Of a DNA stretch of 64,000 bases, positions 2,552-25,698 are shown piece by piece. Origin of the DNA: Dyella telluris. GTDB taxonomy: Bacteria; Pseudomonadota; Gammaproteobacteria; Xanthomonadales; Rhodanobacteraceae. The stretch covers positions 868,001 to 932,000 of the forward strand of contig NZ_CP060412.1 of the NCBI RefSeq assembly GCF_014297575.1, read 5' to 3'. The notes beneath the pieces are model-generated. The model saw only the letters and a program-made list of their open reading frames with translations, did no database searches and had not been told where the DNA came from. Position 1 is the stretch's first letter; each line of letters begins with the position of its first letter. A program made the position numbers and the translations under genes.

Positions 2552-5188
2552 TCAGGAGGCCAGTCGCTGACCAATCCAGCCCGCCAGGCCATCCAGGATG
2601 CCGGGCAGTTCCGGGGTGTCTGAACCGCCGCCCTGAGCCATGTCCGGTCGGCCACCGCCCTTGCCGTCGATCTGGCTGGCCACATGGGCAACCACGTCAC
2701 CGGCCTTCACCCGGCCCAGTGCCTTTCCGTTCACGCCGGCCACCAGGGACACGCGGCCGTCAGCCGCCCCTGCCAGCAGCACCACGCAATCGACGAGCTG
2801 CTGCTTGAGGTTGTCCATGCTGTCACGCAGGGCCTTGGCGTCCAGACCTTCCAGGCGGGCGGCGACGACCTTGATGCCGTCGACGTCCTGCGCCGTGCCG
2901 GCGAGGTCGGCCGTCGCCGAGCCGGCAGCCTTGGCGCGCAGCGATTCCAGCTCGCGCTCCAGCTTTTTCTGCTTGTCGAACAGCTGGCGAAGTTTCTCAA
3001 CCGCCTCGTCACCATGGGACGAAAGCAGCTGCGCGAACTCACCCAGGCGACGTTCCTCGTCGGCCACGTAGGCCAGCGCACCAACACCGGTCACCGCTTC
3101 GATGCGGCGCACGCCCGAGGCCACGCCAGCCTCGCTGACAATCTTGAACAGGCCGATATCACCCGTGCGGCCCACGTGCGTGCCGCCACAAAGCTCGGTG
3201 GAAAACTCGCCCATCTTCAGCACGCGCACTTCGTCGCCGTACTTCTCGCCGAACAGCGCCATGGCGCCGAATTCGATCGCGTCGTTGTAACCCATGTGAT
3301 GCACTTCGGCCGCTTCGTTGCGACGCACTTCGGCATTCACCAGGGCTTCGATCTCGCGCAGCTCTTCCGCGCTCATCGGCTTGAAGTGCGCAAAGTCGAA
3401 GCGCAGTCGCTCCGGCGCTACCTGCGAGCCCTTCTGGGTAACGTGCTCGCCCAGCACCTTGCGCAGGGCAGCGTGCAACAGGTGCGTGGCCGAGTGATTG
3501 AGCACGATGGCCTGGCGGCGCGTGCCGTCGACATTGGCCTCCACCACATCACCCACGCGCAAGGCCTGCTTGCCGTGCCACTGGCCGGCATGGCCAAAGA
3601 ACACGCCACCCATCTTGAGCGCATCGCCCACGGTGAACGAACCTGCGGCAGACACCAGCGCACCGGTGTCGCCCACCTGTCCACCGGACTCGGCGTAGAA
3701 CGGTGTACGGTCAAGGATGACAAGACCTTCCTCGCCATCGGTCAGCTGATCGAGCTGCTTGCCAGCACGCACAATGCCAACCACCTTGCTGCCCTGGCTG
3801 GTCAAAGCGTCGTAACCGAGGAAGACGGTCGGCGCCAGCTGGCTGGCCAGCTCGGCCGGCATCTGGCCCTTGGCTTCGAACTTGCCGCCTTCGCGGCTGC
3901 GCTCCTGCTGTTCCTTCATGGCCTGCTCGAAGCCGTCCATGTCCACCGTCAGGCCGCGCTCGCGCGCGATATCGGCGGTCAGGTCGATCGGGAAGCCATA
4001 GGTGTCGTACAGGCGGAAGGCGTCGGCGCCGGGAATGCTGTCGCTCGACCTGGCGGCCACGGCGTCGAACAGGCGCATGCCGTTCTCCAGTGTTTCGCCG
4101 AAGCGGCGCTCTTCCGTGCGCAGGGCGTCTTCGACGAAGGCCTGTTTCTGCGCCAGTTCCGGATAGGCCTCGCCCATCTCTTGCACCAGCGGCTTGACCA
4201 TCTTCCAGAAGAAATCGCCACGCACGCCGAGCATCCAGCCGTGGCGCAAGGCGCGACGGATGATGCGGCGAAGCACATAGCCACGGCCTTCGTTGGAGGG
4301 CAGCACGCCGTCGACAATGAGGAACGAACAGGCGCGGATGTGATCGGCGATCACGCGCAGCGACTTGTTGGCCAGGTCCTTGGTGCTGGTCAGTTCGGCA
4401 GCCACCTGGATCAGGTGCTGGAACAGGTCGATTTCGTAGTTGGAGTGCACGTGCTGCAGCACGGCGGCCAGGCGCTCCAGGCCCATGCCGGTATCCACGC
4501 ACGGTGCCGGCAGCGGCGACAACGTGCCATCGGGCGCGCGGTCGAACTGCATGAACACGAGGTTCCAGATTTCGATGTAGCGGTCGCCGTCTTCGTCCGG
4601 CGAGCCCGGCGGGCCACCCGCGATGCCTTCACCGTGATCGAAGAAGATTTCCGTACATGGACCGCACGGGCCGGTGTCCGCCATCTGCCAGAAATTGTCC
4701 GACGCGAATGGCGCGCCCTTGTTGTCGCCGATGCGCACGATGCGCTCCGCCGGCACGCCCACTTCCTTGTTCCAGATGTCGAAGGCTTCGTCATCGGTGT
4801 GATACACCGTGACCCACAGCTTGTCCTTCGGCAGCTTGAAGACGCCGGTCAGCAGCTCCCACGCGTAGGTAATGGCGTCGCGCTTGAAGTAGTCGCCAAA
4901 CGACCAGTTGCCCAGCATTTCGAAGAAGGTGTGGTGGCGCGCGGTATAGCCCACCGCATCCAGGTCGTTGTGCTTGCCGCCGGCACGCAGGCAGCGCTGC
5001 ACGTCGGCCGCGCGCACGTACGACAGCTTTTCGCTGCCCAGGAACACGTTCTTGAACTGCACCATGCCCGAGTTGGTGAACAGCAGCGTCGGGTCGCTGG
5101 CCGGCACCAGCGAGCTGGACGGCACGATGGTGTGGCCCTTCGAGCGAAAATAGTCGAGGAAGGTCGAGCGGATTTCGGCGGTTTTCAT
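2552..5188 (-). CDS. alaS: Alanyl-tRNA synthetase
   Basis: An 878-residue class II synthetase that charges tRNA-Ala in the cytoplasm. The start [14 protein letters not shown] matches the family N-terminus, so the frame upstream of 5188 is excluded. The catalytic domain fills about 1-450. The editing domain carries the zinc motif [12 protein letters not shown] near 562 and CGGTHV near 667. A coiled segment and a Gly-rich DHHA1 C-terminal domain ([14 protein letters not shown]) follow. Length is normal. It lies downstream of recX and upstream of csrA on the same strand, matching the conserved recA-recX-alaS-csrA cluster. Confidence 0.98.
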
Positions 5189-10387: not shown

Positions 10388-11227
10388 TTACCGGGCGAGC
10401 GCGCCGATCAACGCCTGCGTCAGCGGTTTCAGGTAATAGCTGCCTTCCGGAACGGCCTGCACCGCCACGCCATGCCGCGCCAGCGACTCCACCACCAGCG
10501 GGCCCACGGCTGCCACCACCGTTTGCGACAGGGCCGCCTGCCAGGCACCCCGCTGCCCGAGCCGGTCGGCCAGGCGAAAGAGCCGCTCCACCTGCTGCAG
10601 GCTGGTGAAGGCCACCGCGTCGATGCCGCCCCCGGTCATGCGCTGCATCAGCGTGGTCACCGCTGCATCGTCAGAGGCATCGGCATAGCGATAGGGCGCG
10701 ACCGGGCGCACGATGGCACCGGCCGCCGCCAGGAAGTCCATCAGCGGCGTGTTGGGATCGGTGCCGTACAACTGCACCCCTACGCGCCGGCCATGCAGGT
10801 CAAGCTGCTGTAGATACCCGATCATCCCCTGCGTGGTGGCGGGCTCGACCACCACGTCAGGACGCAGGCCCAGTTCGCGCAGCACGCGCCCCGGCTTGGG
10901 ACCGCGAGCGATGATGCGCATCGCGGCAAGCTGCTCGACGAATGGCGTGCGCAACCCCGGCTCGTGGCGGTCGATCGCGCCCAGCAACCGATGCAGGCCC
11001 TCGCCCGTGAACACGAGCAGGTCATCGCAGGTACCCGCGTTGATCTCGCGTATCCATGCCAGCACCGGAGCGGGATCGGCGGCATTGCGGATATCCACCA
11101 GCGGGCAGCGCAGCACGCTGGCGCCACGACGCTCCAGCAACGCGGCAAACACGTCCAGCTCCCGCGATTCGGGAACGGCAATGCAACGGCCGCCCAGCGG
11201 CCCTTCCGTGCCCACAGCCTCATGCAT
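10388..11227 (-). CDS. Uroporphyrinogen-III synthase (HemD family) of the nitrate operon
   Basis: A 279-residue protein of the HemD fold, which cyclises hydroxymethylbilane to uroporphyrinogen III. The start MHEAVGTEG is supported by a GGAGGTG site. Typical segments are GRCIAVPESRELDVFAALLERRGA at the N-terminus, LLVFTGEGLHRLL, and VAFTSLQQVERLFRL / AAVGPLVVESLARHGV in the second lobe. It is the last gene of the nitrate operon, 51 bp after cysG, whose methyltransferase uses its product. This suggests a dedicated or additional supply for siroheme. A separate housekeeping hemD elsewhere is likely, so no symbol is assigned. Confidence 0.85.
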   Translation of the reverse strand: MHEAVGTEGPLGGRCIAVPESRELDVFAALLERRGASVLRCPLVDIRNAADPAPVLAWIREINAGTCDDLLVFTGEGLHRLLGAIDRHEPGLRTPFVEQLAAMRIIARGPKPGRVLRELGLRPDVVVEPATTQGMIGYLQQLDLHGRRVGVQLYGTDPNTPLMDFLAAAGAIVRPVAPYRYADASDDAAVTTLMQRMTGGGIDAVAFTSLQQVERLFRLADRLGQRGAWQAALSQTVVAAVGPLVVESLARHGVAVQAVPEGSYYLKPLTQALIGALAR

Positions 11228-11278
11228 GACCCTGCACCTCCGGGACTGATGGCCCGCCATGGCACCGCATGCAGCCCA

Positions 11279-12718
11279 TCAAACCGCCTCCATCTCTACC
11301 GGCACCGTGCCAACCTCATGCCCGGCATCATCCACCAGTTCGCCGTACCACGCGTGCTGGCGTGCGAACGCCGCGACCTCGCCGATGATCAGCAGCGCCG
11401 GTGTCTTCAGCGCGTGGCGACGGGCCTGCGACGTCAGCGTGGCCAGTGTGGCGACCATCACGCGTTGTCGCGGCAGCGTCCCGTTCTCGATGATGGCGCA
11501 AGGGGTTGCCGCATCGCGCCCACGGGAGATCAGTTCTGTTGCCAGCGCTTCAAGCTTCTCCACACCCATGTAGATCGCCAGGGTCTGGCGGGGATGGCCG
11601 GACACCTGGTCGCCCAGCGTATCCGCCGCGTCCTTGCCGTGCGCCGTGAGCAGGCAAAGCGACTGTGCATGGTCGCGATGCGTAAGCGGTATGCCGGCGA
11701 ATGCCGCACAAGCGACGGCCGCCGTGATGCCCGGCACCACGTCGCAGTCCACCCCATGCCGGCGCAGGTAGGCGAGTTCTTCGCCGCCGCGCCCGAACAC
11801 AAAGGGATCGCCGCCTTTCAGGCGCACCACGCGGCGCCCTTCGCGCGCGTGGGCCAGCATCAGCCGATGGGTATGTTCCTGCGCCACCTGCCGACCACCG
11901 CATCGCTTGCCCACGTCAATGCATTCAGCATCGCGCCGTGCCATGGCCAGCACCTCGGGACTCACCAGCTGGTCATACAGGATTACATCCGCCTGCTGCA
12001 GCTCACGCAGCGCCTGCAGCGTCAGCAGGCCGGGGTGCCCCGGACCCGCCCCCACCAAGGCCACCGAACCCTTGCTGCCCGGCGGCCTTTCGTCCTCCAG
12101 CGCCTCCTGCAGGGCTTGCCCGGCCTGCCCCGGCTTAGCCTGCCGTAGCAGCGACAGCACCGGACCATCGTGCAGCCAGTCGTAGAAGCCTCGTCGTGCA
12201 GCGGTATCAGGGAAGCGACCCACGATGCGTGCACGGTGCTGCTGCGCCAGTGCCACCAGCGCCCCCAGCGAGTGGTCGAGCACGCGCTCCAACTGCTCGC
12301 GGATCCGGCGCCCGATCGCCGGCGCGGCGCCGGCCGTGGATATCGCCACCGTCAACGGTGCGCGATCCACCACGGCGGGCACATGGAATTGCGACAGCGC
12401 GGCATCGTCCACCACGTTGGCAAAGGTGCGTCGCTCTTTTGCCTGCGCCGCGATGCTTGCGTTGAGCGCGCGATCATCCGTAGCGGCGATGACCAGCCAC
12501 ATGCCGTCAAGCCAGGCCGGCTCGAACTCGCCATGCCTTCCCTGCACTTTGCCAGCCTCGATCCACGCGACCACTTCTGGCTCGAAACGCGGGGCTCCCA
12601 CCCATACGTCGGCGCCGGCATCCAGCAAGGCCTTGGCCTTTCGCAGCGCCACGCTGCCACCGCCTACCACCAGCACGGGAAGACCGCTCACATCGGCAAA
12701 CAAGGGATAGAGCTTCAT
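11279..12718 (-). CDS. cysG: Siroheme synthase CysG
   Basis: A 479-residue trifunctional enzyme that makes siroheme, the prosthetic group of nitrite reductase NirB. The N-terminal half (about 1-210) is the precorrin-2 dehydrogenase/ferrochelatase with a Rossmann motif VVGGGSVALRKA near 17 and the NVVDDAALSQFHVPAVVDRAPLTVAISTAGAAP region. The C-terminal half (about 218-460) is uroporphyrinogen-III C-methyltransferase with VGAGPGHPGLLTLQAL and RLKGGDPFVFGRGGEE. The stand-alone order of domains and the length are normal. It sits between nasA and the hemD-like gene on one strand, an arrangement tying cofactor supply to nitrite reduction. Confidence 0.96.
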   Translation of the reverse strand: MKLYPLFADVSGLPVLVVGGGSVALRKAKALLDAGADVWVGAPRFEPEVVAWIEAGKVQGRHGEFEPAWLDGMWLVIAATDDRALNASIAAQAKERRTFANVVDDAALSQFHVPAVVDRAPLTVAISTAGAAPAIGRRIREQLERVLDHSLGALVALAQQHRARIVGRFPDTAARRGFYDWLHDGPVLSLLRQAKPGQAGQALQEALEDERPPGSKGSVALVGAGPGHPGLLTLQALRELQQADVILYDQLVSPEVLAMARRDAECIDVGKRCGGRQVAQEHTHRLMLAHAREGRRVVRLKGGDPFVFGRGGEELAYLRRHGVDCDVVPGITAAVACAAFAGIPLTHRDHAQSLCLLTAHGKDAADTLGDQVSGHPRQTLAIYMGVEKLEALATELISRGRDAATPCAIIENGTLPRQRVMVATLATLTSQARRHALKTPALLIIGEVAAFARQHAWYGELVDDAGHEVGTVPVEMEAV

Positions 12719-12748: not shown

Positions 12749-15454
12749 TCATGCCTCGGTCGCCGCGCGCGATTCGGCGATCAGTCGTTGCAGCTCCGGC
12801 ACGCACGAGCCGCAATTGCCACCCGCGCGCAGCGTCGCCGTGATCTTGGCGGTGGTATCCAGTCCTTCCTTGCGGATGGCCTCGCAGATCGTGTTCCTGC
12901 CTACGCCGAAGCACGAGCACACCACCGGGCCGGTATCAACGCCGGCCCCCGGCGGCTCGCCGATCAGCAGGCCGGCGCGATCGATATCCTCCAGGCGTTC
13001 ACGCGCGAACAGGCTCGACAGCCATTGACGCGAAGGAAGATCCGGCCGCGATGAAAGAAACACGCAGGCATCGATGCGATCGTCCAGCACGTGCACCGCA
13101 CGATAGACGCCGGTAGTGCGGTCCTCGTACTCCAGCCAGTCCGCATCCGGGTCGTTCACACCCAGCCAGGCCCTGGCCCAGGCACCGCAATCACCGGGGC
13201 GCTCGCGATGGGCCAGCTCGTAGCGGAAGAAGCGCTCGCCCTGGATAAGGGTCCAGTAGCTCAGTTCCGATGCCGGCAGGAAACGACGCCCGAATGCAAA
13301 GCCATACCAGCGCACGGGGAAGGGCTCGATGCGCACGGGCGTGTGCTTGAACTCCGGCTCACCGGATACCGGATCCACCACCGGGTTCACCACGCCCCCC
13401 ACGCGCGCATCGGAGGCGAACTGATCGTTCCAGTGAATAGGCACGAAGACATGGCCGGCAAGCACATCGCCACCATGCCGCACACGCGCCACCATCGCGC
13501 CCCAGCGGGACTGCACCCGTGCAAGCTCACCTTCGCGCACGCCGCTGCGCAATGCATCGTGCGGATGCATGTCGATGTACGGCTCGCTGATATGCCCGGC
13601 CAGCCGGGGTGACTTCCCGGTGCGCGTCATGGTGTGCCAGTGATCGCGTACTCGCCCGGTGTTGAGTACCAGCGGGAACTCGGCATCCGGTGCATGCACG
13701 GGCGCACGGGCCTTCGTGGCGACAAAGCGAGCCCGGCCGTCAGGGTGCGCAAATCGGCCGTCCGAAAGTACGCGTTGCGTTCCCTCGCCATGCTCATTGA
13801 CCGGCCACTGCACCGGTGCCAGGTTGGCGTAACCCTGCGGCGTGAGCGCCGACATGCTCCCGAGATTCAGCACCCGCGGTGCAGCAGGCAGTCCGTCGTC
13901 GCATGCCTCGTGATTGCGGAAGGAGGTAAGCCGCGCATGCTCCACGAAAATCTGCTGCGGCGTCTCGAACTCGAAACCTTCCACGAAACCAAGGCGCTTC
14001 GCGACGTCGCACACGATGCGCCAGTCAGCCCTCGCTTCACCCGGCGCCGGAAGAAACGGCCGCTGCCGGGAGATGCGCCGTTCCGAGCTGGTCACGGTGC
14101 CATCCTTTTCGCCCCAGCCCAGCGCCGGCAGCAACACATGGGCATGCACATTGGTGTCGGTGCGTTCGATGATGTCCGAGCACACCACGAATTCGCATGC
14201 ATTCAGCGCGCGCTTCACACGGTCGGCGTCCGGCAGGCTTACCACCGGGTTGGTGCCCATGATCCACAGCGCCTTGACCTCACCCTCCAGCACGGCATCG
14301 AACAAGGCCACGGCCTTCAGGCCGGGTTGCGAGGCCATGCGTGGCGACGCCCAGAACGATTGCACGATGTCCCGGTGCACGGGATCGTGCAGCTCCATGT
14401 GCGCTGCCAGCATGTTTGCCAGCCCACCCACTTCGCGTCCGCCCATGGCGTTGGGTTGCCCGGTGATAGAGAACGGGCCAGCGCCTGGCTTGCCGATACG
14501 TCCTGTCAACAGGTGACAGTTGATCAGGCTGTTGACCTTGTCCGTGCCGCTGGACGACTGGTTCACACCTTGCGAGAACAGTGTCACGGTCTTCTCGCAA
14601 CGCGCGAACAGGCGATAGAAGGCCAGCAGATCGGACAGCTGCACGCCACACGCCTTTGCCACCACGGCTGGCTCGGGCGCGTCGTTTTCGGCGGCAGCCA
14701 GCGCTTGTGCCAGCCCCAGGGTGTGCGCGTCCACGAAGCTCGCATCCATCACGCCATGCTGGAACAGGAAGCTGAGCAGGCCGTTGAACAACCACACGTC
14801 GGTGCCAGGCTTTACCGGCAAATGCAAATCCGCGGACTCGCACGTGGCGGTGAAGCGCGGATCGATCACCACGACGCGCGCACCCGCCTCCTTCGCCGCG
14901 GCGATGCGCTGGAACACGACCGGATGGCACCATGCCGTATTGGAACCCACCAGCACGATCAGCTCGGCACGGTCGATGTCCTCATAGCAGCCTGGCACCA
15001 GATCCTCGCCAAACGCGCGCTTGTGGCCTGCCACCGCCGACGACATGCACAGCCGCGAGTTGGTGTCGATGTTGGCCGTGCCGAGATAGCCCTTCGCCAG
15101 CTTGTTGACGACGTAATAGTCCTCCGTGAGCAACTGCCCGGAGACATAGAACGCCACGGCATCGGGCCCGTGCTGCTCGATGACACGGCGGAAGCCGTCG
15201 GCCACGCGGTCGAGTGCATCGTCCCAGCCGGTGCGGAAAAACGCCCCGTCCGGCCCGCGCAGCTTCGGGTGCAGCAAGCGCCCCTGCAGGTCCACCGTCT
15301 CCGCCAGTGCCGCGCCTTTCACACATAGTCGCCCATGGTTGGAACCATGCGAGGGATCACCCGCCACGCTCACCGTGCCCAGCGCATCTACACCTGCCAG
15401 CACACCGCAGCCCACGCCGCAGTACGGACAGGTGGTAGCAACGCGGGCGCTCAA
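12749..15454 (-). CDS. nasA: Assimilatory nitrate reductase, catalytic subunit with C-terminal BFD-like domain
   Basis: A 901-residue molybdopterin (bis-MGD) enzyme that reduces nitrate to nitrite in the cytoplasm. The N-terminus carries the [4Fe-4S] motif CPYCGVGC (from about residue 8). Central segments such as GYLGTANIDTNSRLCMSSAV and GSNTAWCHPV match NasA/NarB. The C-terminus has a BFD-like [2Fe-2S] domain (CSCFGVGRNTICEAI near 846, CGSCVPEL near 881), a fusion common in NasA. A TTG start at 15454 is chosen because GGGAGG lies 6 bases upstream and TTGA overlaps the previous stop codon; this frame has no suitable ATG nearby. Electrons probably come from the 410-residue reductase encoded just upstream. 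Confidence 0.95.
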   Translation of the reverse strand: MSARVATTCPYCGVGCGVLAGVDALGTVSVAGDPSHGSNHGRLCVKGAALAETVDLQGRLLHPKLRGPDGAFFRTGWDDALDRVADGFRRVIEQHGPDAVAFYVSGQLLTEDYYVVNKLAKGYLGTANIDTNSRLCMSSAVAGHKRAFGEDLVPGCYEDIDRAELIVLVGSNTAWCHPVVFQRIAAAKEAGARVVVIDPRFTATCESADLHLPVKPGTDVWLFNGLLSFLFQHGVMDASFVDAHTLGLAQALAAAENDAPEPAVVAKACGVQLSDLLAFYRLFARCEKTVTLFSQGVNQSSSGTDKVNSLINCHLLTGRIGKPGAGPFSITGQPNAMGGREVGGLANMLAAHMELHDPVHRDIVQSFWASPRMASQPGLKAVALFDAVLEGEVKALWIMGTNPVVSLPDADRVKRALNACEFVVCSDIIERTDTNVHAHVLLPALGWGEKDGTVTSSERRISRQRPFLPAPGEARADWRIVCDVAKRLGFVEGFEFETPQQIFVEHARLTSFRNHEACDDGLPAAPRVLNLGSMSALTPQGYANLAPVQWPVNEHGEGTQRVLSDGRFAHPDGRARFVATKARAPVHAPDAEFPLVLNTGRVRDHWHTMTRTGKSPRLAGHISEPYIDMHPHDALRSGVREGELARVQSRWGAMVARVRHGGDVLAGHVFVPIHWNDQFASDARVGGVVNPVVDPVSGEPEFKHTPVRIEPFPVRWYGFAFGRRFLPASELSYWTLIQGERFFRYELAHRERPGDCGAWARAWLGVNDPDADWLEYEDRTTGVYRAVHVLDDRIDACVFLSSRPDLPSRQWLSSLFARERLEDIDRAGLLIGEPPGAGVDTGPVVCSCFGVGRNTICEAIRKEGLDTTAKITATLRAGGNCGSCVPELQRLIAESRAATEA

Positions 15455-16683
15455 GGCTGCCCTCCCGTTGCCTGGCAATAGGCCTGGCCGAACAACAGGC
15501 GATCACGCCAGCGCGCGACATCCGTGCGATGGTTGATCAGGTCGACGTACCAGCTTCCATCGCGCGCGTCGCCGTAAAGCACGGCGCCCACCAGTCGCGG
15601 GCCGTCGAGCACCAGCCGCTTGTAGATGCCGCGCCGGGGATCGCGCATCACCAGGTCCTCCGTGCCCGCACCGCCCATGAAGTCGCCGGCGGAGTAAAGG
15701 TCGATGCCGGTCACCTTCAGGCGCGTGGCGGTTTGCCCGGTGCGATAGCGACGATGGCCGAAGCGCGCGAGATGGGCCGCGCAGACGTTCGCCTGCTCCC
15801 ACACCGGCGCAACCAGCCCGAAGGTCAACTGGCGATGCTGCACGCATTCACCCACGGCATAGATGCTGGGGTCGTAGGTCTGCAGCGTGTCATCCACCAC
15901 GATGCCGCGCTCGCAATAGATGCCGCTTTCCTGCATCAGTGCGATATCCGGTTGCACGCCGATGGCGATCACCACCAGATCGGCCTCCACGCAGCTGCCG
16001 TCGGCCAGCCGCACCCGCTCGATGCGGTCCTTGCCCTCGAAGGCGGCGGTCTCCGCACCCAGCCGAAGGGCTAGCCCCCTGCCCTCCAGATTCCTTGCCA
16101 GCAGCTTTGCCGCATCGCCATCGAGCTGCTGATTGAGCAGCACGTGACTGCGATGGATCAACGTGACCTGCATGCCACGCCGTGACAGGCCGTTTGCAGC
16201 CTCGATGCCCAGCAACCCGCCACCGATGACCGCCGCGCGCCGGTGCCGGCCCGCCGAGGCGACCATGTGTTCGACATCGTCGATGTTGCGGAACGACACG
16301 ATGCCGGGCAGCTCGTTGCCCGGCACCTTGAGCATGGCGGGACGCGAACCGGTGGCGATCAGCAATCGGTCGTAGGCACGCTCGATTCCGTCACGCGAAC
16401 GCACGACACGTCGTGCGCGATCCACCGACACCACCGGGTCACCCCGATGCAGTTCGATGCCCCGCTCGGCGTACCAGGCCGGCTCGTTGAGCATGATCTC
16501 GTCGGCCTGCTTCTCGCCGCTGAGCAGCAGCGACAGCAGGATGCGGTTGTAGTTGCCGTAGGGCTCCGCACCGAACACGGTGATGTCGTAAAGATCCGGC
16601 GCAAGCTGCAACAACTCCTCGACCGTACGCATGCCGGCCATGCCATTGCCGATGACCACCAGGCGTGGACGCGGTCTATTCAT
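15451..16683 (-). CDS. NAD(P)H/FAD-dependent nitrate reductase electron-transfer subunit
   Basis: A 410-residue pyridine nucleotide-disulphide oxidoreductase starting MNRPRPRLVVIGNGMAG (FAD motif). A second dinucleotide motif (AAVIGGGLLGIEAANGL) lies near 150 and IYAVGECVQHRQL near 280. It resembles the N-terminal part of NirB and NasB/NasC-type subunits that pass electrons from NAD(P)H to NasA. Its ATG overlaps the nirD stop codon (ATGA) and its own stop overlaps the nasA TTG start, so translation of the three genes looks coupled. Partner assignment is inferred from context. Confidence 0.88.
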   Translation of the reverse strand: MNRPRPRLVVIGNGMAGMRTVEELLQLAPDLYDITVFGAEPYGNYNRILLSLLLSGEKQADEIMLNEPAWYAERGIELHRGDPVVSVDRARRVVRSRDGIERAYDRLLIATGSRPAMLKVPGNELPGIVSFRNIDDVEHMVASAGRHRRAAVIGGGLLGIEAANGLSRRGMQVTLIHRSHVLLNQQLDGDAAKLLARNLEGRGLALRLGAETAAFEGKDRIERVRLADGSCVEADLVVIAIGVQPDIALMQESGIYCERGIVVDDTLQTYDPSIYAVGECVQHRQLTFGLVAPVWEQANVCAAHLARFGHRRYRTGQTATRLKVTGIDLYSAGDFMGGAGTEDLVMRDPRRGIYKRLVLDGPRLVGAVLYGDARDGSWYVDLINHRTDVARWRDRLLFGQAYCQATGGQP

Positions 16684-17027
16684 GCATCCCCACGCCTGAC
16701 CTGCACCGTGTCGCCCTCGCGCCGCACCTGCCATGCGTGCACGGCCAATGCCGGCGATTCCAGGCATTCGCCCGTGCACAGGTCGAAGTGCTGCTTGTGG
16801 ATGGGCGAGGCGACCACCACATGCCCGCCCAGATCGCCGACCAGTCCACGCGACAGCACTGCCGCGCCGGTCGACGGATCGACATTGTCGATCGCATAAA
16901 GCTCGCCGCTGGCCATGTGGAACACCGCTACCTGTTCGCCGTCCACCAGGGCGCAAACGCCCGTATCGGGGACAATGTCGTCGATCGCGCAGACCGACAT
17001 CCAACCGGCACAGTCTTTGGTCGCCAT
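16680..17027 (-). CDS. nirD: Nitrite reductase [NAD(P)H] small subunit NirD
   Basis: A 115-residue Rieske-fold protein and partner of NirB in reducing nitrite to ammonium. The ATG at 17027 has a GGAG site 6 bases upstream; a GTG immediately before it is a possible alternative. The family pattern is clear: VAVFHMASGELYAIDN, DPSTGAAVLSRGLVGDLGG and VVASPIHKQHFDLCTGECLE. As in enterobacterial NirD, the canonical Rieske Cys-X-His pairs are absent, so it probably binds no cluster. It starts three bases after the nirB stop codon. Confidence 0.95.
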   Translation of the reverse strand: MATKDCAGWMSVCAIDDIVPDTGVCALVDGEQVAVFHMASGELYAIDNVDPSTGAAVLSRGLVGDLGGHVVVASPIHKQHFDLCTGECLESPALAVHAWQVRREGDTVQVRRGDA

Positions 17028-17030
17028 CAC

Positions 17031-19601
17031 TCACTCCGTTTCCACGACGGCGGGGATACGCCCGCGGCGCGCCTGTTTTTCCGCTGCCGTCGCCGGGCGG
17101 ATCTGCCCACGTTCGGGCACGAAGTCCACACGATCATCGCCGGCATCGCTGTTGACGAAATGCTTGAACCGTCGACGTACCAGTGGATCAGTGACGGCCC
17201 GCTTCCACTCGCATTCGTAGGTATCGACGACCTGTTTCATCTCCGCTTCGAGTTCCTCGCCGATGCCCAGGCTGTCGTGGATGATCACGTCGCGCAGGTA
17301 GTCCATGCCGCCATCCAGGTTGTCACGCCACACACTGGTGCGCTGCAGGCGATCGGCGGTGCGGATATAGAACATCAGGAAGCGGTCGATGTAGCGCACC
17401 AGCGTGTCGCCATCCAGATCGCCGGCCAGCAGCTCCGCGTGCCTCGGCTTCATGCCGCCATTGCCGCAGACGTAGAGGTTCCAGCCCTTTTCGGTGGCGA
17501 TGATGCCGACGTCCTTGCTCTGCGCTTCCGCGCATTCGCGCGTGCAGCCCGACACGGCGAACTTCAGCTTGTGCGGCGAGCGCAGGCCCTTGTAGCGGTT
17601 CTCCAGATCGATGGCCTTGCCCACCGAATCCTGCACGCCATAGCGGCACCAGGTGGAGCCCACGCAGGATTTCACCGTGCGCAGCGACTTGCCGTAGGCG
17701 TGTCCGGATTCAAAGCCCGCGGCGATCAACTCCTCCCAGATCAGGGGAAGCTGTTCCACCCGGGCGCCGAACATGTCCACGCGTTGGCCACCGGTGAGCT
17801 TGGTGTAGAGGCCGTACTTGCGGGCGATCTGGCCGATGGCGATCAACCCGTCAGGCGTCACCTCGCCACCAGCCATGCGCGGCACCACCGAGTAGGTACC
17901 ATCCTTCTGGATATTGGCGAGAAAATAGTCGTTGGAATCCTGCAGCGAAGCATGCTCACGCTGCAGCACGAACTCGTTCCAGCACGAGGCCAGAATGCTC
18001 GCCGCCACCGGCTTGCAGATATCGCAGCCCAGCCCATGGCCATGCCGCGCGAGCAACTCGTCGAAGCGATGGATCTGGCCCACGCGCACCAGGTGATAGA
18101 GCTCCTGTCGCGAATAGGGGAAGTGCTCGCACAGGTGGTTGTTCACCGCCATGCCCTGGCGCTTCATTTCCGCCTTCATGATCTGCGTGGCCAACGGCAC
18201 GCAGCCACCGCAGGTAGTACCTGCGCGCGTGGCCTGCTTCAGCGCACCGATGGTGGTGGCTCCCGCTGCCACGGCCTCGCACAGCTGCGCCTTGCTTACG
18301 TTGTTGCACGAACAGATCTGCGCCGTCGCGGGCAAGGCATCCACCGCCAGCCCCGGTTTCGTCGTGCCCTCCACGAGCGGGAGCATCAGCGATCCCGGCG
18401 AATCGGGCAGATCCAACCCGTTGAGCATCATCTGCAGCCAGGCGCCATAGTCGGTGGCGTCGCCCACCAGAACGCCGCCGAGCAAACGCTTGCCATCGCC
18501 CGAGACGACCAGCTTCTTGTAGATCTGCCGGTGCTCGTCGCTGTATTGATACGAACGACTGCCCGGCGTCGCGCCGTGGGCGTCGCCGATGCTGGCCACG
18601 TCCACGCCCATCAGTTTGAGCTTGGTGGACATGTCCGCTCCGGCGAACTCCGGCAGGCTGGGCGCCTGGCTGCGCACCAGCAACGCGTGCAGGTGATTGG
18701 CGACCACGCGCGCCATGTCATAGCCGGGCGCCACCAGTCCGAACACCTTGCCACCCCATTGCGCGCACTCGCCGATGGCGTAAACGTCGCGATCGCGCGT
18801 GCGGCAGAAGTTGTCCACCATGATGCCGCCACGCTGGCCCACGCCCAGCTCGCTGCTGCGCGCCAGTTCATCGCGCGGACGAATGCCTGCCGAGAACACG
18901 ATGAGATCGGTTTCCAGATGGCTGCCGTCAGCGAACGTCATGCGATGGCGCATCGCTTCGCCATCGGAGATCCCCAGCGTGTTCTTGCCGGTGTGTACCA
19001 CCAGGCCGAGGTCTTCGATGGTCCGGCGCAGCACCTGGCCGCCGGCATCGTCCACCTGCACCGCCATCAGGCGCGTGGCGAATTCCACCACGTGCGTTTC
19101 CAGCCCCATGTCGCGCAGCGCCTTGGCGCATTCCAGCCCGAGCAGGCCGCCGCCGATCACCACGCCGTGCGTCGAACGCGTGCCCCAGTGGGCGAGCTCA
19201 TCCAGATCGTCGAGCGTGCGATACACCAGGCAGCCCGGGCGATCATTGCCGGGAATGGGCGGCACGAACGGCGTCGAGCCGGTCGCGATCACCAGCTTGT
19301 CATAGGCAATGACGTCACCGTCGCTAGTGGTCACGCGCTTGATCGCGCGATCGATGCCCACGGCGCGAGTGCCAAGCCGCAGCGACATGCCGGCCTGCTC
19401 GAAGAACCCCGGCGTCACCAGCGAAAGATCATCGGCGCTCTTGCCGGCGAAGAATTCGGACAGGTGCACGCGGTCGTATGCCGGCCGGCTCTCCTCGCAC
19501 AACACGGTGACTTCCAGCCCCGGCGGCTGCAACGACGCCAGTTCTTCGAGCAGCTTGTGGCCAACCATGCCGTTGCCCACGACGACCAGTTTCATTCCCA
19601 T
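17031..19601 (-). CDS. nirB: Nitrite reductase [NAD(P)H] large subunit NirB
   Basis: An 856-residue cytoplasmic enzyme that reduces nitrite to ammonium with NAD(P)H. The order of parts is canonical: an FAD/NAD-binding oxidoreductase (VVVGNGMVGHKLLEEL at the N-terminus, GVVIGGGLLGLECAKAL near 145), a BFD-like [2Fe-2S] segment (CSCNN near 430, CGGC near 465), then a ferredoxin-like/siroheme half with the [4Fe-4S]-siroheme cysteines CVGSTWC (about 650) and CTREC (about 686). A GGAGG site precedes the ATG. It lies 19 bp downstream of the transporter gene and directly upstream of nirD. Siroheme comes from CysG in the same operon. Confidence 0.98.
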   Translation of the reverse strand: MGMKLVVVGNGMVGHKLLEELASLQPPGLEVTVLCEESRPAYDRVHLSEFFAGKSADDLSLVTPGFFEQAGMSLRLGTRAVGIDRAIKRVTTSDGDVIAYDKLVIATGSTPFVPPIPGNDRPGCLVYRTLDDLDELAHWGTRSTHGVVIGGGLLGLECAKALRDMGLETHVVEFATRLMAVQVDDAGGQVLRRTIEDLGLVVHTGKNTLGISDGEAMRHRMTFADGSHLETDLIVFSAGIRPRDELARSSELGVGQRGGIMVDNFCRTRDRDVYAIGECAQWGGKVFGLVAPGYDMARVVANHLHALLVRSQAPSLPEFAGADMSTKLKLMGVDVASIGDAHGATPGSRSYQYSDEHRQIYKKLVVSGDGKRLLGGVLVGDATDYGAWLQMMLNGLDLPDSPGSLMLPLVEGTTKPGLAVDALPATAQICSCNNVSKAQLCEAVAAGATTIGALKQATRAGTTCGGCVPLATQIMKAEMKRQGMAVNNHLCEHFPYSRQELYHLVRVGQIHRFDELLARHGHGLGCDICKPVAASILASCWNEFVLQREHASLQDSNDYFLANIQKDGTYSVVPRMAGGEVTPDGLIAIGQIARKYGLYTKLTGGQRVDMFGARVEQLPLIWEELIAAGFESGHAYGKSLRTVKSCVGSTWCRYGVQDSVGKAIDLENRYKGLRSPHKLKFAVSGCTRECAEAQSKDVGIIATEKGWNLYVCGNGGMKPRHAELLAGDLDGDTLVRYIDRFLMFYIRTADRLQRTSVWRDNLDGGMDYLRDVIIHDSLGIGEELEAEMKQVVDTYECEWKRAVTDPLVRRRFKHFVNSDAGDDRVDFVPERGQIRPATAAEKQARRGRIPAVVETE

Positions 19602-19620: not shown

Positions 19621-20958
19621 TCAGTCGATGGCCATGACTGGCCCGCCTGCCTGTTGCAATGCCTCCCGGTAAAGCCGCTCTTCGTCGGCCGTGTGCTCGC
19701 GGCTGAAGCGCACCGCCAGCGCGCACACGGAACCGGCGATCACGAAGCAGCCCAGCACCAGGAAGCTCTGTTGCACCGAGCCAGTGAATTTCTGCAGGAA
19801 CCCCGCAGCCACTGCGCCCACGTTGCCGCCCGCGCCGACAATGCCTGCCACGCCGCCAAGCGCCCTGCGATCGATGAAGGGCACCAACGCATACGTGGCG
19901 CCGCAGGCCATGTGGGTGAACAGGCCGAACGAGAGCATCGCCGCGATGGCCTCGCCCGCGGCATGCGCACTGGAGAACCACAGCAAGCCAAGCCCTTCGC
20001 AGAGCATCAGCACGCACAACAGGCGCGCACGTGCGGAAAGTCCGCGCTGGCGCGCGAGCCGGTCAGACGCCAGTCCACCCAAGGCACGCGCAAACAAGGC
20101 GAGCAGGCCGAAACAGCCCACGGCCAGCCCCGCCCCGCCAAGACTCAAGCCGAAACGGTCGACGTAATACGCCGCCGCCACGCCGTGCACGAACAGCTCG
20201 ATGCCGAAGCAACCGGCGTACGTCACGAACAGCATCCATACGCGGTAGTTGCCCGCAGCCTGCAGGAACGCCGACCACCCACCCCGCTTGCCGCTGCCCA
20301 CCGCCACGCCACGCGCACGCAGTTCGCGGTAGTTGCCCTCGGGACAGTCCTGGGTGCAGCGCCAATACAGCACGCCGACAATCACCATCAGCGCGCCCGG
20401 CAACAGCATCGCCACGCGCCAGCCGGCGCCATGCGCCACGCCCAGTGCCACGACACCGGCCAGCACCATCGGCATCACCGCCTGCGCCGCGCCGCCGCCC
20501 GCATTACCCCAGCCCGCCGTCGTGGCATTGGCCGTACCCACCACATTGGGCGCGAACATCACCGACGTGTGGTACTGCGTGATCACAAAGCCGGCACCCA
20601 CCATGCCGATGGCCAGCCGCGCCACCAGGAATGATGCATAGCCTTGCGACAACGCGATGCCGAACACGGGAATGGCACCGAGCAGCAGCAAGGCGGTGTA
20701 GGTCCGTCGCGGCCCGAAGCGATCGCACAACGGCCCCACCAGCAGGCGGCCGAACACGGTGACCGCGACGGCCGCGATGGTGATGTTGGCAATCTGGTCC
20801 TTGCCCAGCGCGAACTCGCTGCGCACCAGCGGCATCAACGGCGCGATCGCAAACCACGCGAAGAAGCACGCAAAAAAAGCCATCCAGCTCAAATGGAACG
20901 CCCGCATCTGCGGCGTGCGCCACTGGAACAATTCGATCCGCGTCGCCTTGCCCGACAT
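19621..20958 (-). CDS. MFS nitrate/nitrite transporter (NNP family)
   Basis: A 445-residue inner-membrane protein with about 12 hydrophobic segments. After a short cytoplasmic N-terminus (MSGKATRIELFQWRTPQMRAFHLSW) come FACFFAWFAIAPLMPLVRSEF and the MFS-type loop GPLCDRFGPRRTY. GAGFVITQYHTSVMFAPNVVGTANATTAGWGNAGGG matches the nitrate-signature region of NarK/NasA-type carriers. The start is the Met after GGGGGTGGT; the extra 35 upstream residues are not family-like. It is the first gene of the nitrate operon and would import nitrate for NasA and NirBD. It is 317 bp from the next upstream gene, a spacer holding the operon control region. Confidence 0.93.
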   Translation of the reverse strand: MSGKATRIELFQWRTPQMRAFHLSWMAFFACFFAWFAIAPLMPLVRSEFALGKDQIANITIAAVAVTVFGRLLVGPLCDRFGPRRTYTALLLLGAIPVFGIALSQGYASFLVARLAIGMVGAGFVITQYHTSVMFAPNVVGTANATTAGWGNAGGGAAQAVMPMVLAGVVALGVAHGAGWRVAMLLPGALMVIVGVLYWRCTQDCPEGNYRELRARGVAVGSGKRGGWSAFLQAAGNYRVWMLFVTYAGCFGIELFVHGVAAAYYVDRFGLSLGGAGLAVGCFGLLALFARALGGLASDRLARQRGLSARARLLCVLMLCEGLGLLWFSSAHAAGEAIAAMLSFGLFTHMACGATYALVPFIDRRALGGVAGIVGAGGNVGAVAAGFLQKFTGSVQQSFLVLGCFVIAGSVCALAVRFSREHTADEERLYREALQQAGGPVMAID

Positions 20959-21046
20959 ACCACCCCCGCCCCGAAGATGATGGAATGCTCCCTGCCGGCC
21001 GCCATGGCGGCCGCAGCCCCTCCCCGGGGCCTCCTGCATGTTGCTA

Positions 21047-21062
21047 TGCAACACATATGCCA
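21047..21062 (-). promoter_or_regulatory. Sigma-54 promoter of the nitrate assimilation operon
   Basis: The minus strand reads TGGCATATGTGTTGCA. This matches the -24/-12 consensus TGGCACG-N4-TTGCA with exact GG-N10-GC spacing; the mismatches are T for C and A for G. Transcription would start near 21036, about 78 bases before the transporter ATG. A short dyad TGTTGC-TAT-GCAACA (21039-21053) overlaps the -12 side. Sigma-54 control fits nitrogen-regulated genes. Confidence 0.7.
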
Positions 21063-21156
21063 CCGGCAGGCAGCACGGAAAAACGGGGACTTAGGCGGAA
21101 TGCCTCAGGAGAAAGCCCATCGCCCTGCACCAGCGAGCGCCCTGTACAGGGCCAGT

Positions 21157-21173
21157 TGCACCATTGCAGTGCA
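21157..21173 (-). promoter_or_regulatory. NtrC-type enhancer site
   Basis: The dyad TGCACTGCAATGGTGCA differs by one base from the NtrC consensus TGCACC-N5-GGTGCA. Its centre is about 117 bp upstream of the -12 element, a usual NtrC enhancer distance. A weaker GGTGCA half-site lies nearer, around 21126-21131. Confidence 0.65.
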
Positions 21174-21275
21174 GCAATACCAAGCACACGGACAAACAGG
21201 GGCCAGCCCCGCCCCGCGGCAAGCTCAACAGGGCGCTCGCTTGATCAGTATCGCGGCGAGGCGGTGCTGCCCGTA

Positions 21276-22688
21276 TCAGTTACATCGATGGCCAGGCGAC
21301 AGCGGCCGGCCCATGACGATGTCGAAAGCCGCCTGCCCCATCGCCGCATAGCCCTGATCGTTCGGATGCAAGCCCGCATCGCCTGCACACACGGTGGCCA
21401 TGCCGGGCGGCAAGGGGTGCTGTGCCGCCGCGAGGGGCGACGGCTGGTACCGACCCGTCAGCACGTCGGCAAAGGGCAGCACGCCGTCCAACTTGGCATC
21501 GTGTTCGATCCACCGGTTCACCTGCTGACGCACGGCTTCCTTCTCGGGCGTGAACCAGCCGGGGCTGGGAAGCCCGGCGAATGGCGGCACCGTGCCCACA
21601 TAGACGCGCAGGCCGTGCTGATGGGCGACGTCCGTCAGCATGCGCAGCCCGGCGATGAGGTCGCCGGCCAGCACGCCGTTCGGCTGGCCGGCCCGGTCGA
21701 TGCCACGGTTGATGTCATTGGATCCCAGCAGCACGAGCACGTCAGTGACGCCGGGCTGGTCGATCACGTCACGCTCGAATCGCTTCAGTCCGGACATGCC
21801 GGCTTTCGGGTTGCCGATCTGGTCGGTGGTGAGTTCGTCCGCGCTGATGCCCATGTTGGCCACAGCCATGGGCGCAGGCGTGCCGGCCACATTGGCCAGC
21901 GACGAAAGCACGCCAGGCCAGGTGGTGGCCGGCGTCGTGGCGAATGCACCATCGGTGATCGAATCGCCAAAGGCGACGATGCCTCGCGTCGACTGCGGCA
22001 CCTGCACGTCGACACCGTTGAGCACATACACGTGCGGTGAGTTGTCGGCGTCGGGAAGATCAAACGGTTGGCGGCCGGCGAGCGTCAACGCATCCACTGC
22101 GTTCCCCGCCACGATCGTCGTGGTGGGACCGTGCTCCATCGGGTGCACGTCAGCCAGATGCGCACCCTCGGCGAAATGCAGGCTGACCACCACCGTGGAC
22201 AAGGCAGGCACATCCAGTTCCACCGCATCGCTGGTCGACAGTCCACCCGCCGGAATGATCAGGCTGTCTTTGCCATCGAAGCGCAATGCCCGGTCGCTGG
22301 CCTTGACGATCTGCGTGAGATCGCTGGAACCCGGCGCACCCAGCGCGACATGTGCCGATGCCACGGTCAGCGGCGCGTCGCCAAAGTAGTTCGACAAGCG
22401 GATACGCAGCTTGCCGCCGCCCACGCTGGTCAGCACGGCCTGGCGCACGGTGAAGCCATCCCGCCCCTTGGCTGCGGCGGGCTCACTGCGCGTCTGCGCT
22501 CCGTTTTCATGCGCCTCGGACGACACATTGGAGGTCATCGCCTGCGCCCACGTCGCGACCCACTTCTGTGCAGCCGCCGGGGCCTCGGCGTGAATCGGCA
22601 TGCCGGCGAATGACAAAAGCAGCAGGACCATGGCGGCAGGACGCCACCAGCGCATGCATGCATGAATGCCGTGCAGGGCGACTCGCAT
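21276..22688 (-). CDS. Exported SGNH/GDSL hydrolase
   Basis: A 470-residue secreted hydrolase. A GGAGAG site precedes the ATG at 22688 and a signal peptide ends near HAEA (about residue 36). The SGNH blocks are in order: the catalytic serine in VAFGDSITDG (about 240), the oxyanion glycine in VANMG, GSNDIN (about 307) and the catalytic Asp/His region DAGLHPNDQGY (about 443). The N-terminal about 200 residues form a beta-rich accessory region typical of the larger secreted esterases of this group. Substrate (lipid ester, acetylated glycan or other) cannot be read from sequence. The gene stands alone, 382 bp from mutS, which runs in the opposite direction. Confidence 0.88.
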   Translation of the reverse strand: MRVALHGIHACMRWWRPAAMVLLLLSFAGMPIHAEAPAAAQKWVATWAQAMTSNVSSEAHENGAQTRSEPAAAKGRDGFTVRQAVLTSVGGGKLRIRLSNYFGDAPLTVASAHVALGAPGSSDLTQIVKASDRALRFDGKDSLIIPAGGLSTSDAVELDVPALSTVVVSLHFAEGAHLADVHPMEHGPTTTIVAGNAVDALTLAGRQPFDLPDADNSPHVYVLNGVDVQVPQSTRGIVAFGDSITDGAFATTPATTWPGVLSSLANVAGTPAPMAVANMGISADELTTDQIGNPKAGMSGLKRFERDVIDQPGVTDVLVLLGSNDINRGIDRAGQPNGVLAGDLIAGLRMLTDVAHQHGLRVYVGTVPPFAGLPSPGWFTPEKEAVRQQVNRWIEHDAKLDGVLPFADVLTGRYQPSPLAAAQHPLPPGMATVCAGDAGLHPNDQGYAAMGQAAFDIVMGRPLSPGHRCN

Positions 22689-23070
22689 CGTTCGTGCTCT
22701 CCATCAGTGGTGGTCAGCCGCATCGTGGTCAACCGCGCGCAGCAGCGCGTCGCGGCCCGCATCCACGGTGCGTCCCGACCCGGAAGGGCCACCTTACCAG
22801 TCTCATGGGTGACATCACGGACATCGCCCGCGAGGGGCCCCAAGGGCAAATGCAGCATATCCATGCATTGGGGGGGACGAAGAGGGAGCGCAACCAGGGG
22901 GTATCAGGCGATACTTGTCGTTCCCGGATGGCGGAGCGGCCTGCGCGCCGGTGCCGCGCACATGGCCCGGAAGCATGCACGAGACCTGCCGCACGGGGCC
23001 CTGCATCACGCCCCCATCCACGGAAAAAGCGGGCATGATCGCCCTCATAACCAACTGAACAGCATTGAAA
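22689..23070. other. Divergent intergenic region upstream of mutS
   Basis: A 382-bp spacer between divergent genes. No gene, RNA or strong dyad is supported; it presumably holds the promoters of both neighbours. Confidence 0.5.
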
Positions 23071-25698
23071 ATGATGGAAAACACGACCTCGCAGAGCAGC
23101 AACGACATCCATGGCGAGACGGTCGCCAAAAGCGAGGCAATCCACACGCCGCTCATGCGCCAGTACCTGGGAGCCAAGGCGGAACACCCGGATGTGCTGC
23201 TGTTCTTCCGCATGGGCGATTTCTACGAGCTGTTCTACGACGATGCGCGCAAGGCCGCGCGCCTGCTCGACATCACGCTGACCCAGCGTGGCCAGTCCGC
23301 GGGCCAGCCCATTCCCATGGCAGGCGTGCCGTATCACGCCGTTGAAAACTATCTGGCGCGCCTGGTGCGCCTGGGCGAGTCCGTGGCCATCTGCGAGCAG
23401 ATCGGCGACCCGGCCACGTCCAAGGGCCCGGTGGAACGCAAGGTGGTACGCATCGTCACGCCCGGCACCGTCACCGATGCCGCGCTGCTGGAAGAGCGTC
23501 GGGACAACCTGCTGATGTCCATTTCCGCCGGCGCGCACGGTGCCTACGGCCTGGCCTGGGTGGATCTGGCCAGCGGCCGCTTCCTGCTCAGCGAAGTGCC
23601 GAGCGCCGAAGCGCTGGCGTCGGAACTCGCACGCCTGCAGCCGGCCGAAACGCTGGTGGGCGAAGACGTGGCATGGCCGAAGTTCGTCAGCACCCTGCCC
23701 GGCCTGCGCCGTCGCCCACCGTGGCACTTCGACGGCGACGCGGCGAAGCGCGAACTCAATCGCTTCTTCGGCACGCGCGATCTGGGCGGCTTCGGCGTGG
23801 ATCGCCTGCCGCTGGCCGTTGCTGCTGCCGGCTGCCTGCTGGGCTATGTGGAAGAAACGCAGAAGAGCGCGTTGCCGCACATGACCGGCATGTCGGTGGA
23901 AAGCGCCAGCGACACCATCGCGCTCGATGCCGCCACGCGCCGCAACCTGGAGCTGGATACGCACCCCAGCGGACGCACCGAGCACACCTTGCTCGGCGTG
24001 CTGGACGAAACCGTGACGCCGATGGGCGCGCGCCTCATGCGCCGCTGGCTCAACCGCCCGCTGCGTTCGCGCGACCTGCTGCGCGCACGCCACCAAGCCA
24101 TCGGCACCCTGATCGATCACCGCCAGCACGAACCGCTGCGCGAACAGCTGCGCGGCATCGGCGACCTGGAGCGCATCCTTGCCCGCGTCGCGTTGCGTTC
24201 GGCACGCCCGCGCGACCTCTCCACGCTGCGCGATGGTCTGGCCGCCGCGCCCGCGCTGCGCGCGCTGATCGCCACGCTGGACAGCCCGCTGCTGCACGCA
24301 CTGGTGGATCGCATCGGCGATCACGCCGACAACGCCGCCCTGCTGGCCCGCGCCGTGGTGGCGCAACCGCCGGTACTGCAGCGCGACGGCGGCGTGATTG
24401 CCGACGGCTACGACGCGGAACTTGACGAACTGCGTCGTCTCTCCACCCACGCCGACCAGTATCTGGTCGAGCTGGAAGAACGCGAGAAAGCCGCCAGCGG
24501 CATCAATACGCTGAAGGTCGGCTACAACCGCGTGCACGGTTATTACATCGAGATCAGCAAGGGCCAGGCGGACAAGGCGCCAACGCACTACACGCGCCGC
24601 CAGACCACCAAGAATGCCGAGCGCTACATCACCGAAGAACTGAAGGGCTTCGAAGACAAGGTGCTCTCGGCCAAGGAACGCTCGCTGATGCGCGAGCGCG
24701 CCCTGTATGAAGCCCTGCTCGACACGCTCACCGAACAGCTCGAGCCCCTCAAGAGTGCTGCCACCGCCATGGCCGAACTCGACGTGGTAGCCACGCTGAC
24801 CGAGCGTGCGGTGACGCTGGACTGGGCCGCACCCGAGCTTACCGACGAGCCCGGCATTGCCATCGAACGTGGCCGCCATCCGGTGGTGGAGAAGGTGCGC
24901 GACGAGCCGTTCGAGCCGAACGACCTGCAGCTGGATGACGGCCGCCGCATGCTGGTGATCACCGGTCCCAACATGGGCGGTAAATCCACCTACATGCGCC
25001 AGAACGCGCTGATCGTGCTGCTCGCGCATATCGGCAGTTACGTGCCGGCATCGCGCGCGGTGATCGGCCCGATCGACCGCGTGTTCACCCGCATCGGCGC
25101 GGGCGACGACCTTTCGCGCGGCCAGTCCACCTTCATGGTGGAAATGAGCGAAACGGCCAACATCCTGCACAACGCCACCGAACACAGCCTGGTGCTGATG
25201 GACGAAGTGGGCCGTGGCACCAGCACCTACGACGGCCTGGCGCTCGCCCGCGCGGCGGCCGTGCACCTGGCCGCCGCCAGCCGCTCCTACACGTTGTTCG
25301 CCACGCACTACTTCGAGCTGACCGAGCTGGCCAACGAGTACGGCACCATCGCCAACGTGCATCTGGACGCCGTCGAGTACGGCGAGCAACTGGTGTTCAT
25401 GCATGCCGTGAAGGAAGGCCCGGCCAACCGCAGCTTCGGCCTGCAGGTGGCCGCGCTCGCGGGCCTGCCCAAATCAGTGATTGCCGATGCGCGCCGCACG
25501 CTGGCCGAACTGGAGCGCGGCATGTACCAGCATGCGTCGGCCGCCAGCCCCGGCACGCCGGCGCAGGAGTCGCCGCAGATGGGCCTATTCGCCGCGGCGC
25601 CGTCGGTGGTGGAGCGCGCGCTGGAACACATCGATCCGGATGCCATGACCCCGCGCGAGGCACTGGAAGCGCTCTATCGGCTTAAGGCGCTCAACTAG
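23071..25698 (+). CDS. mutS: DNA mismatch repair protein MutS
   Basis: An 875-residue mismatch-recognition ATPase. The mismatch-binding domain holds [15 protein letters not shown], containing the conserved Phe-X-Glu wedge. The connector, lever and clamp domains follow, including the [17 protein letters not shown] clamp segment. The ATPase has Walker [10 protein letters not shown] near 632 and Walker B/signature [12 protein letters not shown] near 710. The C-terminal part includes a short Ala/Pro linker before a terminal helical segment. Length is typical. The start is uncertain: ATG codons at 23071 and 23074 both fit and neither has a clear ribosome binding site. Confidence 0.98.

Follow-up and report, generated by a model that had tools for sequence, protein, structure and literature searches.

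Putative NtrC/sigma-54 control of the nitrate assimilation operon of Dyella telluris, and a symmetric sequence across its -12 box

What controls transcription of the nitrate assimilation (nas) operon of Dyella telluris, a member of the Rhodanobacteraceae? The operon lies in a stretch of 64,000 nucleotides, which we call the window; its positions are counted from the first letter (Table 1), and the genome was searched whole (4,991,029 bases, 4.99 Mb). On the minus strand the gene order is narK-nirB-nirD-FAD oxidoreductase-nasA-cysG-hemD. This confirms, from narK to hemD, the seven-gene operon of a preliminary description made from the DNA sequence, and a single transcript would presumably cover all seven genes. 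The FAD/NAD(P)-dependent oxidoreductase is by our reading a nasB-like electron donor, and nasA scores under the cut-off curated for the NasC and NasA models. The nas block is placed between mutS and cinA-recA. After hemD follow amidohydrolase and M19 peptidase genes, which are present in 3 of 19 compared neighbourhoods (19 kb each), all from one genus. The transporter is found in 20 of 147 Rhodanobacteraceae genomes, an even draw from a larger group in which the D. telluris genome itself is counted. Among the best 80 of 578 loci kept from a scan of named genomes for narK relatives, the top ones belong to Rhodanobacter, Dyella and Frateuria.

Table 1. Features of the nas locus (window positions), and second ANTAR leader matches in other loci (positions within each locus).
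Feature	Position	Strand	Remark
hemD-like uroporphyrinogen-III synthase	10388..11260	-	
cysG, siroheme synthase	11279..12718	-	
nasA, assimilatory nitrate reductase catalytic subunit	12749..15478	-	C-terminal BFD [2Fe-2S] domain
FAD/NAD(P)-dependent oxidoreductase	15451..16686	-	start approximate
nirD, Rieske-type small subunit	16680..17030	-	
nirB, nitrite reductase large subunit	17031..19601	-	
narK-type nitrate/nitrite MFS transporter	19624..20958	-	ATG at 20958, start picked from alignment
Predicted untranslated leader, about 78 nt	20959..21036	-	start inferred 12 bases past the -12 C
Hyphenated dyad TGTTGC-ATA-GCAACA	21039..21053	-	spans the -12 box and continues to about -3
Predicted sigma-54 promoter TGGCATATGTGTTGCA	21047..21062	-	GG 21060-21061, GC 21048-21049
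Putative NtrC site 2, weak	21126..21142	-	only the GGTGCA half (21126-21131) fits
Putative NtrC enhancer site 1, TGCACTGCAATGGTGCA	21157..21173	-	centred at about -129 relative to the predicted start
Terminator-like stem-loop	21199..21215	-	between GDSL gene and enhancer; 1 compared to a shuffle mean of 0.3: weak
Second ANTAR leader matches	L040 5081-5155; L042 5043-5115; L049 5047-5119; L051 5060-5128; L055 1952-2025		

Upstream of narK, the minus strand carries a predicted sigma-54 promoter in which GG and GC lie ten bases apart, exactly the spacing given in the preliminary description. The sigma-54 consensus context is TGGCA..TTGC[AT] with GG-N10-GC, and transcription would start near 21036. 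TGGCATATGTGTTGCA is single in the whole genome. The general pattern TGGCAYNNNNNTTGCW occurs at 18 places genome-wide compared to 7 for a reversed control; it is therefore unselective and on its own proves little. Further upstream lies the NtrC dyad that had also been described, TGCACTGCAATGGTGCA, centred 117 bp away from the -12 C. NtrC sites follow the consensus TGCACYNNNNNGGTGCA, a dyad of the TGCAC-N7-GTGCA type about 100–150 bp upstream of the promoter. TGCACTGCAATGGTGCA has zero mismatches to it on the minus strand, and the dyad is perfect. With one mismatch, the consensus is common (74 strand-wise matches compared to 21 in the reversed control). Perfect matches number two in the whole genome, the nas site and one before a gene that its sequence would name glutamine synthetase glnA. 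At this glnA promoter, as at nas, the perfect dyad stands upstream of a perfect sigma-54 site, at 103 bp instead of 111 bp. By our own arithmetic (2 x 18 x 150 / 4.99 Mb) about 0.001 chance pairings are expected. Since both perfect NtrC dyads lie upstream of sigma-54 sites, the pairing goes beyond chance. A second, weak site is placed 31 bp downstream of site 1.

The preliminary description had proposed to look for the two elements in related genomes, and both are conserved in all 24 distinct Rhodanobacteraceae nas promoters. This set includes the window's own promoter; with duplicates there are 28 family sources (L034, L026, L028 and L030 were omitted as duplicates of L153, L143, L138 and L149). 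The sigma-54 site has no mismatch to TGGCAYNNNNNTTGCW in 14 of the 24 promoters, one in 8 and two in 2, and the NtrC dyad has none in 19, one in 4 and two in 1. The distance between dyad and promoter is 109–112 bp in 23 of the 24; L152 has two overlapping NtrC matches, which give 122 bp (the script's choice) or 109 bp. A GGTGC half-site 30–32 bp downstream of site 1 was found by script in 22 promoters, or in 23 when L152 is re-read, and is missing in L149. The neighbourhoods tell the same story over larger distances. There a single match to the sigma-54 pattern (W allowed in place of the first T of TTGC) is found in 18 of the 19 and none in L204; a perfect NtrC dyad is present in 15, with two overlapping copies in L201. 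Both are always at nas.

The genome also encodes the proteins required: an rpoN gene is present (481 bits, cut-off 277), and so is ntrC (617 bits, curated cut-off 558.6). The nitrogen control proposed earlier is borne out by the position of the elements, the rarity of the pair, the conservation in all 24 promoters and the presence of both genes. Hence, an NtrC/sigma-54 nitrogen-starvation switch very probably drives the nas operon. Against it count the two family promoters with two mismatches to the sigma-54 pattern and the one with two to the NtrC pattern. That NtrC binds the nas promoter, and does so depending on its phosphorylation, we infer from the sequence. Four further proteins reach 325–421 bits with the ntrC model, so a different activator of the NtrC class could act here.

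If the switch works as we envisage, phosphorylated NtrC would occupy site 1 when ammonium is short. Site 1 would then help NtrC onto the weak site 2, which is about three helical turns nearer to the promoter. Through looping, NtrC would contact the sigma-54 polymerase waiting at -24/-12, the promoter would open, and the seven genes from narK to hemD would be transcribed. An antitermination step of the NasT/NasR kind was not found in this lineage. Promoter and enhancer are ordinary in kind: they are textbook elements, known biology in another lineage. The new parts are that the RNA layer was not found in the family and that a dyad is fused to the -12 box. As a layout of the regulation, the preliminary description holds for NtrC and sigma-54, and is incomplete in that the second enhancer half-site and the -12 dyad were missed.

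How does this compare to nas operons outside the family? Of 72 outside loci, 62 have a sigma-54 site no more than 260 bp from narK (at most one mismatch), compared to 0.3 in shuffled sequences. The stretch from this site to the narK start is longer there, with a median of 166 bp in the 62 outside loci compared to 98 bp in 7 of 8 named family loci. A match to the NtrC consensus 60–160 bp upstream is found in just 2 of the 62 at no more than one mismatch and in 15 at no more than two. The strong dyad is thus a feature of the family and not a general one.

Among known systems, the same transporter, nirB, small subunit and nitrate reductase genes form BCAM1686-1683 of Burkholderia cenocepacia, a species not among the 72 outside loci. 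The available part of that report names the nitrate genes as common sigma-54 and NtrC targets and gives changes of -6.5 to -6.8 (taken as log2) for nitrate transporter, nirB, small subunit and nitrate reductase in an ntrC mutant (PMC5491218). NtrC control is also shared with nasFEDCBA of Klebsiella oxytoca, which is described in the portion of the source at hand as under general nitrogen control via NtrC (PMC5424462). The target of NasR in K. oxytoca is a leader that contains a terminator and two hairpins with hexaloops, according to the accessible section of the paper (PMC3369931); such a leader was not found in the window. An ntrC mutant of Acidovorax citrulli cannot use nitrate as its sole nitrogen source, as stated in the part of the article available (PMC10052978). 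By comparison, the NtrC regulon has been extended to nas genes of alpha- and betaproteobacteria, and the main text of that study, as far as it was available, holds no word beginning with Xanthomonad (PMC5343134). In the literature collection that was searched, there was nothing on nitrate with NtrC or RpoN for Rhodanobacter, Dyella or Rhodanobacteraceae, and Luteibacter together with nitrate assimilation returned only a review on fungal endosymbiosis, of which a part was available.

The -12 dyad is a further feature of the promoter. Counted from the T of TGGCA, it consists of positions 9–14 and 18–23. All 24 family promoters form at least five of the six pairs (six in 16, five in 8), 18 contain the exact form TG[TA]TGC-N3-GCA[AT]CA, and positions G18, C19 and A23 are invariant. 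Beyond the dyad, no column is conserved to 70% (23 aligned rows). A scan around the promoter covered 1386 six-base registers; among them the dyad ranks first, at 0.944, followed by shifted or nested forms of itself. The next independent register, at 0.618, is also the top register of the glnA set and hence belongs to the sigma-54 consensus. This glnA set served as a control and comprises the glnA promoters of the same 20 genomes, all with a sigma-54 site at no more than two mismatches (column counts used the 15 with at most one). They pair at 0.25 at the nas register, and none of the 20 reaches five of six pairs; L226 and L227 form four. The glnA promoter of D. telluris, unlike its nas promoter, forms one pair in six at that register. 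Outside the family, a site was recognised in 59 nas promoters, two of which reach five pairs (L038 and L103). In the 19-kb neighbourhoods the dyad pattern occurs in 15 of 19, always at nas.

Changes within the dyad are partly paired. On the narK tree, the difference between T-A and A-T at positions 11/21 maps to one split between two clades with support of 0.99 or more; the A-T form turns the TTGC of the -12 box into ATGC. A second paired difference, G-C or T-A at 10/22, separates L149. In about six cases a single change disrupts a pair and has no counterpart in the other arm (L027, L140, L138, L145/L147, L148/L150 and L149). A conserved sequence of two-fold symmetry whose changes are in part paired is what the operator of a dimeric transcription factor would look like. 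The symmetry is kept in the sequences compared, and it is two events that speak for paired change.

Could the operon be controlled in another way altogether? One could argue that the motifs are chance look-alikes and that the operon has a sigma-70 promoter, given how common the sigma-54 pattern is by itself. The pairing with NtrC sites and the conservation speak against it, a simple scan of 20900–21300 found no sigma-70-like site, and we find this explanation hardly credible. It is also very improbable that an ANTAR protein still provides nitrate-specific antitermination on the leader. In the known type, each ANTAR hexaloop has A at position 1 and G at position 4, according to the part of the source available (PMC3369931). 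No ANTAR protein was found in the D. telluris genome or in any of the 147 drawn family genomes; as the 14 control genomes of the family search were negative too, that search does not show absence. A side-by-side comparison comes from 31 genomes taken from the best 80 of 578 narK relatives, where one and the same search detects an ANTAR protein in 23 genomes, namely in 23 of 23 outside the family (its positive control) and in 0 of 8 Rhodanobacteraceae. The RNA tells the same story. In many outside leaders a short hairpin whose hexaloop resembles AACGGC recurs, together with a T-run terminator, and a covariance model built from 19 of these leaders finds a leader upstream of narK in 43 of the 72 outside loci (E of 0.01 or better; 24 of the 53 loci not used for training). 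The same model finds none in the 28 family sources (24 distinct promoters, the window included) at E up to 1, and the best score of the window leader with filters off is -0.7 bits. Compared to shuffled sequences the window leader folds at a z of -0.33, a Herbaspirillum leader at -3.30. A strict rule for hairpin pairs, applied to 200-base and 260-base stretches, selects 0 of 28 family and 28 of 72 outside loci. In favour of an ANTAR leader one can cite less strict rules. A loose A..G.. hexaloop rule accepts 22 of 28 family stretches and 68 of 72 outside ones and is uninformative, as it also accepts 13.5 and 30.7 after shuffling. The rule for specific loops accepts 2 of 28 (L028 and L138, the same promoter; shuffles 0.2) compared to 45 of 72. 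Terminator-like stems before T-runs occur in 3 of 28 (L136, L138 and L028; shuffles 1.3) and in 28 of 72 (shuffles 1.9). Rfam gave one match on 20850–21400, at 10.9 bits with a gathering score of 60 and an E of 6.6, which was discarded. That NasT-like antitermination is unsupported had already been noted from the window, and the zeros among 147 genomes and 28 family sources, with positive controls outside the family, strengthen it.

This leaves the question of what the -12 dyad does beside the NtrC/sigma-54 switch. It may be the binding site of a further protein, a candidate reading with a reasonable chance that falls short of probable. In a more specific version of this reading, a repressor or co-regulator that responds to nitrate, nitrite, molybdenum or some other signal would use the dyad as its operator; bound there, a repressor would block the -12 contact and hold off the sigma-54 polymerase until it is released. 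Such an operator would have taken over the pathway-specific control that elsewhere falls to NasT, and would supplement the NtrC switch rather than replace it. We consider it unlikely. It would explain why all 24 promoters keep at least five pairs and why G18, C19 and A23 are invariant in a right arm that falls outside the sigma-54 consensus. It would also account for the two paired differences and for the fact that none of the 20 glnA promoters reaches five pairs, and the dyad occurs where ANTAR control was not found. However, unrepaired changes outnumber the two paired ones about three to one, and no regulator gene is common to the operon flanks of the 19 neighbourhoods (19 kb, genes called by a simple script, some of them cut). 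The Burkholderiaceae loci L038 and L103 combine five of six pairs with an ANTAR leader. Moreover, of the two further perfect copies of TGWTGCNNNGCAWCA in the genome, one is taken as intragenic and the other precedes a prpB-like gene, which we read as 2-methylisocitrate lyase; the latter is probably there by chance. Alternatively, the right arm could be constrained for promoter opening or polymerase clearance at this one promoter, and its match to the -12 box as a dyad would then be a by-product. This we regard as possible, with some doubt. The arm lies within about -8 to -3, the region that opens during initiation, and the excess of single unrepaired changes fits. Nevertheless, the 20 glnA promoters of the control set are unconstrained at those positions, and a paired T-A/A-T difference would not be expected.

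It seems quite unlikely that nas operons of the Rhodanobacteraceae lost antitermination of the NasT type and that specific control moved to the promoter, with a dimeric repressor on the -12 dyad. If true, nitrogen starvation and a second signal would be read at one 130-bp site, and not at a promoter plus a leader RNA. If a repressor does bind the dyad, one layer of regulation would clearly have been exchanged for another. The contrast itself merits attention: many relatives from other families have both a sigma-54 promoter and an ANTAR leader, but in the Rhodanobacteraceae ANTAR protein and leader RNA were not found, and a symmetric site is joined to the -12 box instead. The 15-bp dyad could be used directly as bait for the factor.

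Other candidates for parts of such a system were rejected. With one mismatch, TGWTGCNNNGCAWCA matches at 184 places compared to 56 in the reversed control, and six look-alikes among the matches listed were compared and not taken as operators. L162, L168 and L182 have long common flanks and are therefore members of a multi-copy repeat; L179, L160 and L164 lack such flanks. The repeat, CTCCGCGTTAAGTCCTC...AAGGCCATTT, belongs to the D. telluris genome and includes GGTTGCCAAGCAACA (around 1430–1585 in L162, L168 and L182). A 228-aa frame in four loci, tried as a regulator, is an L-PSP-domain protein.

Some observations concern the arrangement of related promoters. In four neighbourhoods (L197, L199, L200 and L204) cysG-hemD is oriented opposite to nas; the sigma-54, NtrC and dyad patterns of these loci are found only at narK, none at the reversed cysG-hemD. 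The glnA promoters of one clade (L217, L218, L219, L223, L225, L226 and L227) share a GCACGCGCG block just past the -12 box. In L226 and L227, GTGCTT and AAGCAC flank the -12 box of glnA, maybe as another dyad of different spacing.

The outside leaders seem to have three hexaloop hairpins of the ANTAR type, not two (L035, L039, L043 and others; alignment about 3324–3444), and the middle one, for example GGTCC-AACGAT-GGACC, is visible in many alignment rows. In five Paraburkholderia/Burkholderia loci a second match to the ANTAR leader model lies about 300 bases downstream of narK (Table 1), as if there were another antitermination point inside the operon.

An inverted repeat, AGCGAGCGCCCTGT, with arms at 21125–21145 and 21228–21248, surrounds the enhancer and was considered as a part of the switch. 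Its two arms are the sole exact copies in the genome, and three more exist at one mismatch. The upper arm falls within 21179–23142, which has no match in the four relatives compared; it is hence outside the conserved switch, and we rejected the repeat. The same segment, about 2 kb with a GDSL-lipase gene, separates mutS from the nas enhancer. In the closest of the four relatives, the shared sequence extends up to 21178 and stops there, just upstream of the NtrC site.
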